This document shows positions 10,268 to 48,232 of a stretch of DNA of 64,000 nucleotides, one piece after another. The notes under the pieces are model-generated. The model did no database searches and had not been told where the DNA came from. It saw nothing but the letters and a program-made list of their open reading frames with translations. Numbering within the stretch: the first letter of the stretch is position 1; each line of letters starts with the position of its first letter. Position numbers and translations under genes: made by a program. The stretch is from Flavobacterium sp. SUN052 (GTDB taxonomy: Bacteria > Bacteroidota > Bacteroidia > Flavobacteriales > Flavobacteriaceae): NCBI RefSeq assembly GCF_028867935.1, contig NZ_JAPQNS010000022.1, positions 10,526 through 74,525 on the forward strand, written 5' to 3'.

Positions 10268-10825
10268 TTAATTCAAACGAGGATCGACTGGGTAGTTGGC
10301 CATTGCCTTAAACTCGCCCCCCATGCTTTTAAGCACACCACGCCAAAATTGGTCGGCGGGCGTCTCGAAAAGAAATTCCGCTTCGCTCTTGGCAATGATC
10401 CAGGCTTTCTCGGCTAACTCGCTATCCAGCTGACCCTCGTTCCAGCCCGAATAACCCACAAAAAAACGAATGTCAGCCTCAGGTAGGGTGCCAATATTGA
10501 CGGCTTGTTTTACCTGTTCAAAATTGCCACTCCAGTATAACCCTTCTCCTACTCGGATTGACCCGTCGATCAAATCGGGACGGCGGTGCAGATAATGAAG
10601 CGTATTTTGCTGAACAGGGCCACCCAAAAACAGTGGATAATCAGCATATACATCCTCAATAACGTCGCTCAGATGCAGGTTAGTTGTTTGATTCAGAACC
10701 AAGCCAAAAGTTCCCTCGCTACTATGCTCGCACACCAAGACTACACTCCGCTCAAAATTAGTGTCGCTGAGATAGGGTTCGGCAATCAATAGACTTCCGT
10801 TAGTTACAGTTGATGTCTTTTTCAT
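10268..10825 (-). CDS. YqgE/AlgH family protein
   Basis: 185 residues, the usual length for UPF0301/YqgE. Typical features are GSLLIAEPYLSDTNFERSVV near the N-terminus, GTFGLVLNQTT, PLFLGGPVQQNTLHYLHRRPD and the downstream FFVGYSGWNEGQLDSEL. The family adopts a compact cytoplasmic fold; AlgH influences alginate regulation in Pseudomonas, but the biochemical role is unknown. It stands alone between the PorT-like gene and folK on the same strand, with short spacers. Confidence 0.92.
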   Translation of the reverse strand: MKKTSTVTNGSLLIAEPYLSDTNFERSVVLVCEHSSEGTFGLVLNQTTNLHLSDVIEDVYADYPLFLGGPVQQNTLHYLHRRPDLIDGSIRVGEGLYWSGNFEQVKQAVNIGTLPEADIRFFVGYSGWNEGQLDSELAEKAWIIAKSEAEFLFETPADQFWRGVLKSMGGEFKAMANYPVDPRLN

Positions 10826-35795: not shown

Positions 35796-36839
35796 TTATT
35801 CGTCATATCCAAACCGCTTCAGGGCGCGCTCTTTGTTGCGCCAATCGGGTTCTACTTTGACAAATGTTTCGAGGAATACTTTTTTGTTGAAGAATCGTTC
35901 CAGCTCTTCGCGAGCCATAATGCCCGTTTTTTTAATCATTTTGCCCCCTTCTCCGAGCAGAATAGCCCGTTGAGTAGGTCGTTCTACCAGAATTTCTGAC
36001 GAAATAATAATCATGTCGTCGCGCTCTTTGAAACCCGTAACAATCACCTCCGAACTGTAAGGAACCTCCTTTTTGTAATTCAGAAAGATCTTTTCACGGA
36101 TGATCTCTGAAGCAAAGAACCGCTCTGGCTTGTCGGTTAGTTCATCTTTCGGAAAGAACGGCGGATGATGAGGCAGTCGCGTAATGATTCCGTCGAACAG
36201 TTTGTTGATGTTGAACGCGTTCAGGGCCGAGATGGGTATGATCTGGGCGGCCTGAAAGTGTTCCTGCCAATGCGCTATTTTGGCCTCGACTTCCTCGTGT
36301 GTGGCCAAGTCGATTTTGTTGATCAGCAGAATAACCGGAACGTCGGTCTTTTGTAATCGCTGAAGAACGTCGTCTTCGTCGTGTTGCTCGTAAATATCCG
36401 TTACGAACAAAATCACATCCGCATCTTCGAGCGAGCCCCGCACAAAACTCATCATCGACTCATGCAGCTTGTACATGGGTTTGATAATGCCCGGCGTATC
36501 TGAGTAAATCAGCTGAAACTCTTCGCCCTCATGCGTTCCGTTCAGGATACCCATGATGCGATGCCGCGTTGTTTGCGCCTTCGAGGTGATAATAGACAAT
36601 CGCTCCCCAACCAATTGATTCATCAAGGTTGATTTGCCCACATTAGGTTTGCCCACTATACTGACAAACCCCGCCCGACCGGGATACTGAGCCGCAGCAA
36701 TGGCGGCCAAATCGGGTGCCAGCTCATCGTCTGACAGGTCATTCTCTGTCGAATCGTTACCCGGAAGGTTAGTTTCGGGTAAATCGACACCGGGCGACGT
36801 ATCGTCCGGAAAATTATTTTCGTTTTTAGATGATCCCAT
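35796..36839 (-). CDS. era: GTPase Era with acidic N-terminal extension
   Basis: 347 residues; Era is normally about 300. The GTPase domain has G1 at residues 63-70 (GKPNVGKS), the effector-region QTTRHRIMGI, G3 DTPG and G4 NKID. The KH domain that binds the 3' end of 16S rRNA follows (RPTQRAILLGEGGKMIKK). The first ~52 residues are rich in Asp, Glu, Asn and Ser and likely disordered. ATG at 36839 is the only start that opens this frame; a true start near Q51 would lack an ATG. Era assists 30S assembly in the cytoplasm. Confidence 0.95.
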   Translation of the reverse strand: MGSSKNENNFPDDTSPGVDLPETNLPGNDSTENDLSDDELAPDLAAIAAAQYPGRAGFVSIVGKPNVGKSTLMNQLVGERLSIITSKAQTTRHRIMGILNGTHEGEEFQLIYSDTPGIIKPMYKLHESMMSFVRGSLEDADVILFVTDIYEQHDEDDVLQRLQKTDVPVILLINKIDLATHEEVEAKIAHWQEHFQAAQIIPISALNAFNINKLFDGIITRLPHHPPFFPKDELTDKPERFFASEIIREKIFLNYKKEVPYSSEVIVTGFKERDDMIIISSEILVERPTQRAILLGEGGKMIKKTGIMAREELERFFNKKVFLETFVKVEPDWRNKERALKRFGYDE

Positions 36840-36971: not shown

Positions 36972-37337
36972 CGCGGGATGGAGCAGTTGGTAGCTCGTTG
37001 GGCTCAGCAATGCCACATCAGTTGAAGATTCAGAAAACGCACTGTTTCTGAGTTGCGAGTCGAAAGATTCAGACGCTATGTGACGGGCAGCGTAGTCAGG
37101 AATGATTACGTGTATCTTGCCAAATTCGGGGAAGCTGGTTGTGCGGTAATCCCGAGCCAAGCCAAAGCGTAAGCTGCGGAAGGTGTAGAGACTGAATGGT
37201 AAGCACCCTAAGTTCGGGTAACTGAAACGGGTGAAGAGACAGTCCAGACTACAAATTACTGCAATCGGCAGTAAGCAACGAAAGTTGTAGTAGTAAGCAT
37301 AACCCAAAGGTCGCTGGTTCGAGTCCAGCTCCCGCTA
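36972..37337 (+). tRNA. Initiator tRNA-Met(CAU) interrupted by a group I intron
   Basis: Joining 36972-37004 to 37298-37337 gives a 73-nt tRNA with all parts intact: acceptor C1-A7 with T66-T72, D stem GAGC/GCTC, anticodon stem TTGGG/CCCAA, loop CTCATAA (anticodon CAT) and T stem GCTGG/CCAGC. Initiator features are the unpaired C1-T72, the A11-T24 pair and three consecutive G-C pairs at 29-31/39-41. The following bases are CTA, so CCA must be added after transcription. Insertion is between T33 and C34 (see intron); because CA occurs at both boundaries, the exact junction could be shifted by up to 2 nt. No other initiator tRNA occurs in this window. Confidence 0.93.
37005..37297 (+). ncRNA. 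Group I (IC3-like) self-splicing intron, 293 nt, no ORF
   Basis: The 5' exon ends in T and the intron ends in G, as group I chemistry requires. Core elements are recognisable: P-like CAAATTCGGGGAAGC at 37121, Q-like TAATCCCGAGCCAAGCC at 37147, R-like GGAAGGTGTAGAGACT at 37178 and S-like AAGAGACAGTCC at 37234. These pair as P4 (CGGG 37127/CCCG 37151), P7 (GACTG 37190/CAGTC 37240) and P8 (CACCC 37204/GGGTG 37229). P2 may be CAGAAAAC 37031/GTTTCTG 37044. P9 is TACTGC/GCAGTA (37257-37273), followed by a GAAA-capped hairpin at 37276. The motif wording closely follows cyanobacterial and plastid tRNA-Leu introns. A clean U-G-containing P1 was not found; only GGC/GCC pairs across the 5' junction. Confidence 0.9.
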
Positions 37338-37345
37338 CTAAGCGA

Positions 37346-37375
37346 AAGGTCACTGAGAAATCGGTGACCTTTTTT
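37346..37375 (+). terminator. Terminator after the initiator tRNA
   Basis: GGTCAC (37348-37353) pairs with GTGACC (37364-37369), followed by a run of six T. It ends the tRNA transcript before the endonuclease-like gene. Confidence 0.88.
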
Positions 37376-37409
37376 GTTTATTTGGGCTTTTAAACCCCAT
37401 CCCATCCCT

Positions 37410-37874
37410 GTGTTAACAAAACAGAAAGGTGATATTGCCGAACAGGCTGTTATACTAAAAGCACTCCAACTAGGTTTAGGTGTTTGTAAGCCAATTGGCG
37501 ACCGAATGCCTTATGATTTAGTTTTTGACGTTGACGGACGACTACTAAAAATCCAAGTCAAAAGTGCCTGGTTTGATGAGAACCGAAGTAATTACGTGAT
37601 CGACACGCGCCGAACAAAAACGAATCGACGGCAAATGCTCCGTTCAACGTATTCTTCAGATGATTTCGATTTTGCCGTTGCTTATATTGAAGCATTGGGA
37701 GTCTTTTATGTAATTCCTGTCGACTGTTTTATCAGTTATGGCTCCGAAATCCATTTGGTGGAAGCAGAAAAGCGGCAACGACTGCCAAAGTCATCCGCTT
37801 ATCGAGAAGCCTGGCATTTGGTTACAAATACTGTTATGTCGCCTGTTTCTCCAGTTGTTTTAGAGCAATTTTAG
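37410..37874 (+). CDS. PD-(D/E)xK homing-endonuclease-like protein (I-Ssp6803I family), free-standing
   Basis: 154 residues from GTG 37410 (MLTKQKGDIAEQAVILKALQ); the frame also opens from a TTG inside the terminator T run, which is unlikely. The layout matches the family of PD-(D/E)xK nucleases that includes the group I intron-encoded I-Ssp6803I (150 residues): KQKGDIAE with Glu11, PIGDRMPYDLVFDVDG with Asp36 and LLKIQVKSA with Gln49-x-Lys51. The Q-x-K form replaces the usual (D/E)-x-K, as in that family. I-Ssp6803I is encoded inside the initiator-tRNA intron of Synechocystis and cuts intronless initiator tRNA genes. Here the gene lies 72 bp after the 3' exon, behind a terminator. Specificity for the tRNA is inferred from position; other nucleases of this fold cannot be excluded. 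Confidence 0.8.
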   Translation: MLTKQKGDIAEQAVILKALQLGLGVCKPIGDRMPYDLVFDVDGRLLKIQVKSAWFDENRSNYVIDTRRTKTNRRQMLRSTYSSDDFDFAVAYIEALGVFYVIPVDCFISYGSEIHLVEAEKRQRLPKSSAYREAWHLVTNTVMSPVSPVVLEQF

Positions 37875-48144: not shown

Positions 48145-48232
48145 TGGTACCAGGAGCGGGAGTCGAACCCGCACGGGCTTTAGGCCCACAGGATTTTAAG
48201 TCCGGCGTGTCTACCAATTCCACCATCCCGGC
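48145..48232 (-). tRNA. tRNA-Leu(UAA)
   Basis: On the minus strand the 88-nt sequence begins GCCGGGATGG and ends in encoded CCA. The anticodon loop CTTAAAA gives TAA, and a class II variable arm (GTGGGCCTAAAGCCCGT) is present. This leucine tRNA has no intron, unlike its cyanobacterial counterpart. Confidence 0.95.

Follow-up and report, generated by a model that had tools for sequence, protein, structure and literature searches.

According to the part of the source available to us, the initiator tRNA gene (tRNA-fMet) of Synechocystis PCC 6803 carries a group I intron of 655 nt with an open reading frame (ORF) of 150 codons (PMC1995217). The authors of tRNAscan-SE 2.0, in the accessible section of their paper, attribute the missing fMet or Ile2 tRNA genes of 36 genomes to group I introns (PMC8450103). 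Nuclease genes lying next to an intron are described from phages: the accessible text on F-CphI, located beside the intron-bearing psbA gene of cyanophage S-PM2, names this collaborative homing (PMC6083498), and excerpts of a 2023 paper describe a homing endonuclease gene beside the intron-bearing terminase gene of phage ICP1 together with T3/T7-like cases, state that the origin of the collaborative-homing arrangement is not clear and suggest turnover by a new nuclease (PMC10448857). A review covers work on two phages (PMC3984707). Here we analyzed a stretch of 64,000 nucleotides (positions 10,526 to 74,525 of contig NZ_JAPQNS010000022.1, deposited as Flavobacterium sp. SUN052), hereafter the window, in which an initiator tRNA gene is split by a group I intron without ORF and is followed, behind a terminator, by a free-standing gene for an I-Ssp6803I-like nuclease. 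The locus is quite probably a two-part homing element of the collaborative type residing in a bacterial chromosome, with cleavage, splicing and transfer that we infer from sequence comparison.

The nuclease gene (37410..37874, + strand) starts with a GTG and encodes a protein of 154 amino acids; its ORF is intact and is nested in a longer mechanically called ORF that begins at a TTG at 37374. The protein matches the PDDEXK_5 profile (PF11645) over positions 1-137 of 138 with an E value of 4.6e-48 and 163.2 bits against a cut-off of 26.1, and a search of the PDB sequences (E up to 1) returned 2ost as the sole match, aligned without gaps over 137 residues (E 1.5e-61). We take 2ost to be I-Ssp6803I. 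Residues E11, D36, Q49 and K51, presumably the active-site residues of the E-D-QxK arrangement of this PD-(D/E)XK enzyme, are invariant in all 30 aligned sequences, and the 2ost chain carries a Q where the window nuclease has the E. The original prediction, made from the window's letters, had called the 154-residue protein I-Ssp6803I-like from its length and this arrangement and had proposed the PF11645 search as a check. These results agree with it, and the best similarity is to I-Ssp6803I rather than to an unrelated restriction nuclease. The gene is single-copy in the window's genome.

It might be argued that the nuclease has been co-opted for defence or for a different target and only happens to have stayed next to the tRNA gene. 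The protein does have distant relatives in phages (26 records, all below 60% identity, and 29-41% identical among the 20 matches listed), and in a Saccharibacteria metagenome-assembled genome (MAG; locus L009) a 34% identical, PF11645-like ORF lies amid uninterrupted tRNA-Thr and tRNA-Tyr genes where no group I intron was found. However, similarity and length are kept and the gene is tightly linked to the split site, a plasmid search gave no match to the nuclease, and no other PF11645 match above 26.1 bits is present in 36 genomes of the genus Spirosoma, the comparison set defined below (three reach 21.6-24.5 bits only). A search of viral contigs gave two pattern matches and no nuclease relative. 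We consider such another role highly improbable.

The tRNA-fMet gene of the window is split by an insertion of 293 nt between U33 and C34. The 5' exon (36972..37004, + strand) ends in GGGCU, the last base being U33, the intron (37005..37297, + strand) ends with a G, and the 3' exon (CATAACCC...GCTAC) covers 37298..37338 (+ strand); the 40-base core of the joined exons is matched unchanged in relatives. Between the tRNA and the nuclease gene lies an intrinsic terminator (37344..37373, + strand), a stem-loop followed by a T-run, with 13 pairs in the scan and a fold of -19 kcal/mol (z -6.3). The gene had been placed 72 bp past the tRNA behind a terminator: position and terminator stand, and the distance is corrected to 71 bases between the tRNA end at 37338 and the ORF start at 37410. 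On the other side, divergent from the tRNA, the era GTPase gene (35796..36839, - strand) flanks the element from outside and marks the same locus in relatives, adjoining fMet in 39 of 40 compared loci.

ARAGORN does not call the split fMet tRNA, and the intron scores 46.9 bits (E 6.9e-11) against RF00028 in a local search; it is missed by Rfam at the gathering cut-off because this is below 50 bits. The relatives' introns L005-L007 score 59.0-63.3 bits. The intron has no ORF of at least 50 amino acids on the + strand, as had been predicted, and a mechanical ORF of 118 codons on the - strand overlaps it. We aligned 15 ORF-less introns, from the window and from 14 genomes of the Spirosoma family. 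RNAalifold returned 76 consensus pairs, of which 27 show one or more compensatory changes, the tRNA pairs being counted in. U33 before the intron, C34 after it and the terminal G are common to all 15, and the U before the 5' splice site and the terminal G are also found in L008, a more distant locus described below. The P1 guide is likely the GGC at about 37086-37088, within a conserved GGGC near 37085, which would pair with the GCU exon end and form a U.G pair at the splice site. When the whole split locus was searched against the window's genome it matched in one place only and no second fMet gene was found, which argues that the intron must be spliced for the cell to live. From the conserved core and the U/G boundaries, the fMet insertion appears to be a group I intron that would splice itself out.

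The era of the window is 53-56% identical to that of most genomes labelled as its kin (51% and 52% for two others) and 80-83% identical to that of two genomes of another family; the kinship label of the window's genome is probably wrong. Because the era of the label-based relatives is only 51-56% identical, the genus and family searches were moved to G880, and the comparison set, selected by era similarity and centred on this genome, comprises 36 genomes of the genus Spirosoma and a family set of 222 genomes. The label-based sets (299 and 199 genomes), where two weak matches (E 4e-4 and 8e-4) appeared besides the window's own, were not used as evidence of absence. Presence of the nuclease was scored at E up to 1e-20 and that of an uninterrupted fMet gene as a match to the 40-base core within 3 mismatches across the 222 genomes; the uninterrupted sequences were checked among the matches listed, and a few of those with 3 mismatches, for instance two of the three in G1030, could be CAU tRNAs of another kind.

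Within the genus the nuclease is found in 6 of the 36 genomes and an uninterrupted fMet gene with unchanged core in 29, and no genome has both (Fisher 3.6e-6, with genomes counted as independent of kinship). Across the family, 13 of the 222 genomes carry the nuclease and 185 the uninterrupted core. Out of the 13 nuclease genes, 11 adjoin a split tRNA, a frameshifted copy among them. Of the other two, one is located elsewhere (G961) and one, in G968, sits next to an uninterrupted fMet gene and has an in-frame stop codon. No intact nuclease was thus found in any of the 222 genomes with an uninterrupted fMet gene. The window and 14 family genomes provide 15 complete split loci, with the nuclease right behind the tRNA in 12, elsewhere in one and absent in two; 11 of the 12 tRNA-adjacent genes are open. 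This distribution supports the collaborative-homing reading that the original prediction had put forward; the single copy found elsewhere in the 222 genomes belongs to a genome with a split fMet gene. The 37 family genomes without an uninterrupted core consist of 12 nuclease carriers and 25 others: two with a split fMet gene (G898 and G1032), 12 with a diverged uninterrupted gene, G1087 with the 3' end of the intron only, and ten (G940, G941, G944, G955, G977, G1027, G1046, G1068, G1074 and G1086) in which no complete fMet match of either kind, split or uninterrupted, was seen. The G1087 sequence (L122, G1087:C365:1-400) is a contig start where, after the 3' end of the fMet intron, the 3' half of tRNA-fMet is repeated several times in tandem with GC-rich insertions, either an assembly artefact or a real array.

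Comparison of the near sisters G899 and G911 shows how the two parts differ between otherwise similar loci. Both are collinear over 2025 bp (93.6%) up to U33, where a 305-nt intron follows in G899; past the intron the two share 83 bases, which hold the 3' exon and the terminator (91.6%). After these G899 has 562 bp where G911 has 24 bp, and collinearity resumes for a further 1906 bp (86.5%). The 562-bp block consists of the nuclease gene with short flanks. Because the shared 83 bases part the intron from the nuclease block, the two genomes differ by two separate insertions together. G904, the next branch out, has neither intron nor nuclease, and parsimony on this branch favours a gain in G899 as the likelier direction of change. 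In the other near-sister pair, G896/G880, the sequences following the tRNA resemble each other for 45 bases only, and the edges of the nuclease are therefore unreadable. On an era tree of 39 rows, which leaves out G910 (short contig), the fewest changes are five for the intron and six for the nuclease, so the distribution is patchy.

Relatives of the nuclease are also found inside the intron. In L008, from a MAG of the Villigracilaceae (a family that we take to belong to the Chloroflexota), a homologous ORF of 67% identity is carried within an fMet intron of 647 nt, where it follows the 5' splice site and precedes the guide sequence. Translated in the L008 guide frame, the ORF-less introns read mostly RAA*, WAA*, GAA* or WAVPGETP. 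Among the best 120 of 1094 homologues, 20 end with W, R or G before AA and none with another residue before AA, six more extend into the translated intron core, and 28 have WAVP-like tails, which is the least certain label. Homologues with such guide-region C-terminal tails would be intron-internal, a position seen in DNA once, in L008. One of the core-reading proteins is P0017 from a Cytophagales MAG, whose tail indicates that inside copies also exist near the Spirosoma group; Scytonema (P0112) and Nitrospiraceae (P0116) are among the names borne by other inside-labelled proteins. We then have a nuclease tree of 42 rows, made of 29 inside-labelled proteins of the 120 (28 of the 56 flagged by their tails, and P0112 chosen by eye), L008, 2ost and 11 outside proteins. 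It does not include the 63 homologues that bore no label, the other 28 with flagged tails, the copy from G961 and the two broken genes. In this tree the outside proteins form one side of a branch with support 91/76. Given the inside relatives and the grouping of the outside proteins, the gene probably left the intron: it would most likely have resided ancestrally in the P1 loop, and it probably moved once to the 3' flank, in the ancestor of the Spirosoma-family elements. Intron-core remnants were sought behind the outside nucleases, and a single chance-like motif was seen in one of 14 loci.

The P1 loops of introns L109, L110, L111, L113 and L118, read in the guide frame, end in QSIC[KM][RG]AA* or similar (TSICKGAA* in L113), and such ends resemble the QLIFKWAA* ends of intron-internal nucleases. 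A score for fossil ORF ends was matched by 37-173 of 2000 shuffles for the closely related introns of G961, G1041, G959, G1040 and G960, and by at least 305 of 2000 for the remaining ten introns without ORF. That the P1 loop of the G959-group introns retains the end of a fossil ORF is a weak lead. That the nuclease left the P1 loop for the spot behind the terminator, freeing the intron of its ORF and making the pair a chromosomal drive with immunity, is an account that we hold tentatively, at rather less than even confidence.

Several observations weigh against a two-part homing element, or against a single departure of the gene from the intron. G898, which belongs to the genus, and G1032 have split loci and no nuclease in the genome, the split fMet gene and the open nuclease gene of G961 are located on different contigs, and the nuclease of G1040 is frameshifted; from these four genomes, decay of the nuclease appears to be common. 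There are only five independent contrasts, in which the nuclease changes the same way as the intron in 3.7 on average, the opposite way in 0 and shows no difference in 1.3 (p 0.125). Over 28 pairs the identity of the nuclease correlates with that of era at r 0.57 against 0.92 for the intron, and nuclease with intron at 0.66. The trees of nuclease and intron agree in part only: one pairs the window (WIN) with G1078 at a support of 100/99, and in the other the two are unpaired (89/86). The RNAalifold consensus fold shows no P1, the exon end being paired elsewhere. As for the departure from the intron, a tree of 134 rows needs two changes between inside and outside, one of which is forced by well supported branches, and the branch of the distant outgroup L009 is too long to root the nuclease tree. 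On the expectation that intron and nuclease are gained and lost together the observations are divided: the zero overlap in the genus and the G899/G911 pair agree with it, G898, G1032 and G961 do not, and the contrasts taken alone are weak. In G961 the DNA upstream of the nuclease gene (L108, G961:C13) holds a 16-nt tRNA 3' remnant and a terminator only.

An intron without nuclease in G898 and G1032, and a nuclease at another place in G961, would also be seen if the two were independent neighbours, the nuclease having arrived by its own intronless homing and the intron separately, for example by reverse splicing, and their nearness being a coincidence of a shared target. This is very unlikely, since every intact nuclease seen in the 222 genomes is accompanied by a split fMet gene in the same genome, the position is the same in 12 of the 15 split loci, both parts differ together between G899 and G911, and relatives of the nuclease reside inside the same intron.

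The same losses, with the frameshift in G1040, the stop codon in G968 and the close tracking of era by the intron, are also compatible with a nuclease that is the decaying leftover of an earlier mobile intron, the intron itself being inherited vertically or randomly lost. We regard such a relic as unlikely, more probable though than chance neighbours. Most of the adjacent copies are open, the catalytic residues are invariant, and near sisters differ in both parts together, patchily. In addition, the dN/dS of the nuclease, computable for 9 of 55 pairs, lies between 0.03 and 0.13; only two of these pairs (G906/G895 and G1041/G959, both 0.11) have a dS below 1.1, the others being near or past saturation. 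Synonymous differences are larger in the nuclease than in era in all seven compared pairs, which indicates either an older history of the nuclease copies or a higher rate of evolution than that of era.

In collaborative homing an intron without ORF interrupts the target gene and the nuclease gene stands by itself beside it. This is the layout of the window, and the two-part homing element could work as follows. The nuclease, as expected from its kinship with I-Ssp6803I, would cut initiator-tRNA genes that lack the intron, across their anticodon region, and the carrier would be immune because its intron occupies and breaks up the cut site. A cut recipient repaired from carrier DNA would gain the intron, and a repair tract running about 580 bp further (37298-37874) would copy the 3' exon, the terminator and the nuclease gene as well. 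Once the allele is fixed the enzyme would be unselected and so would decay or be lost, as in G1040, G898 and G1032, and where the intron is lost the enzyme should be dead, as in G968. If this holds, the intron is the antidote and the nuclease the driver of a drive-like element at what is apparently the cell's only initiator-tRNA gene, and loss of the intron with an active enzyme would be punished by cutting that gene. A nuclease leaving its intron would also be the reverse of the usual proposal, in which free-standing nucleases enter introns, and would provide one route to collaborative homing. One enzyme family with one expected target is represented within the intron as well as beside it, in named Spirosoma species such as S. 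sordidisoli and S. oryzae, and the question of origin becomes testable because near-sister genomes lack both parts and both positions occur.

Another tRNA gene of these genomes appears to hold introns. The tRNA-Leu(UAA) gene of the window (48145-48232) is uninterrupted, and in the loci of seven relatives a group I intron is found close to that same tRNA-Gly gene. In two relatives, introns of the tRNA-Leu(UAA) type lie beside tRNA-Gly and hold an HNH-like ORF of 171-172 amino acids (L041:1664-2176, - strand, and L124:833-1348, + strand; 20.2 and 21.2 bits for Pfam HNH, against a cut-off of 21.4). The C-terminal end of this ORF continues into the intron core, and the neighbouring tRNA-Gly, placed as in the window, points to tRNA-Leu as the host gene.

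No description of the window-type arrangement was found in an open-access library of 5.39 million papers, judged by titles and the starts of abstracts; subscription journals lie mostly outside it, so this absence is weak. The accounts of collaborative homing retrieved there concern phages (PMC6083498, PMC10448857), in line with the earlier suggestion that the arrangement is not widely described. With the Synechocystis I-Ssp6803I system the locus shares the enzyme family (high similarity), the host gene and a group I intron in the anticodon loop, as described in the accessible section of PMC8450103. In Synechocystis the ORF is inside the intron; in the window the intron is ORF-less and the gene lies outside it, past the terminator of the tRNA. 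The F-CphI/psbA case is alike in that a free-standing nuclease gene adjoins an intron of the target gene, the intron prevents self-cleavage and joint movement is possible, according to the part of the source at hand (PMC6083498), and the ICP1 and T3/T7-like cases are alike in that the nuclease gene adjoins the intron rather than lying within it, to judge from the excerpts available (PMC10448857). F-CphI, however, is by the same partial account a nuclease of the Endo VII type at a protein gene of a phage, whereas the window has a PD-(D/E)XK enzyme at a chromosomal tRNA gene, with some relatives still intron-internal. Unlike in the ICP1 case as excerpted, the window-type inside and outside genes belong to the same family and have the same expected target. 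In phage T4 the trans homing of the defunct I-TevIII is reportedly carried out by mobE, and there too, as far as that case is described to us, a neighbouring nuclease mobilises an element unable to move alone; this is presumably a phage case with enzymes different from that of the window. On our best reading, collaborative homing, described so far from phages in the accounts above, would occur here in a bacterial chromosome, at a tRNA gene, with an enzyme whose relatives are also found inside the same intron.
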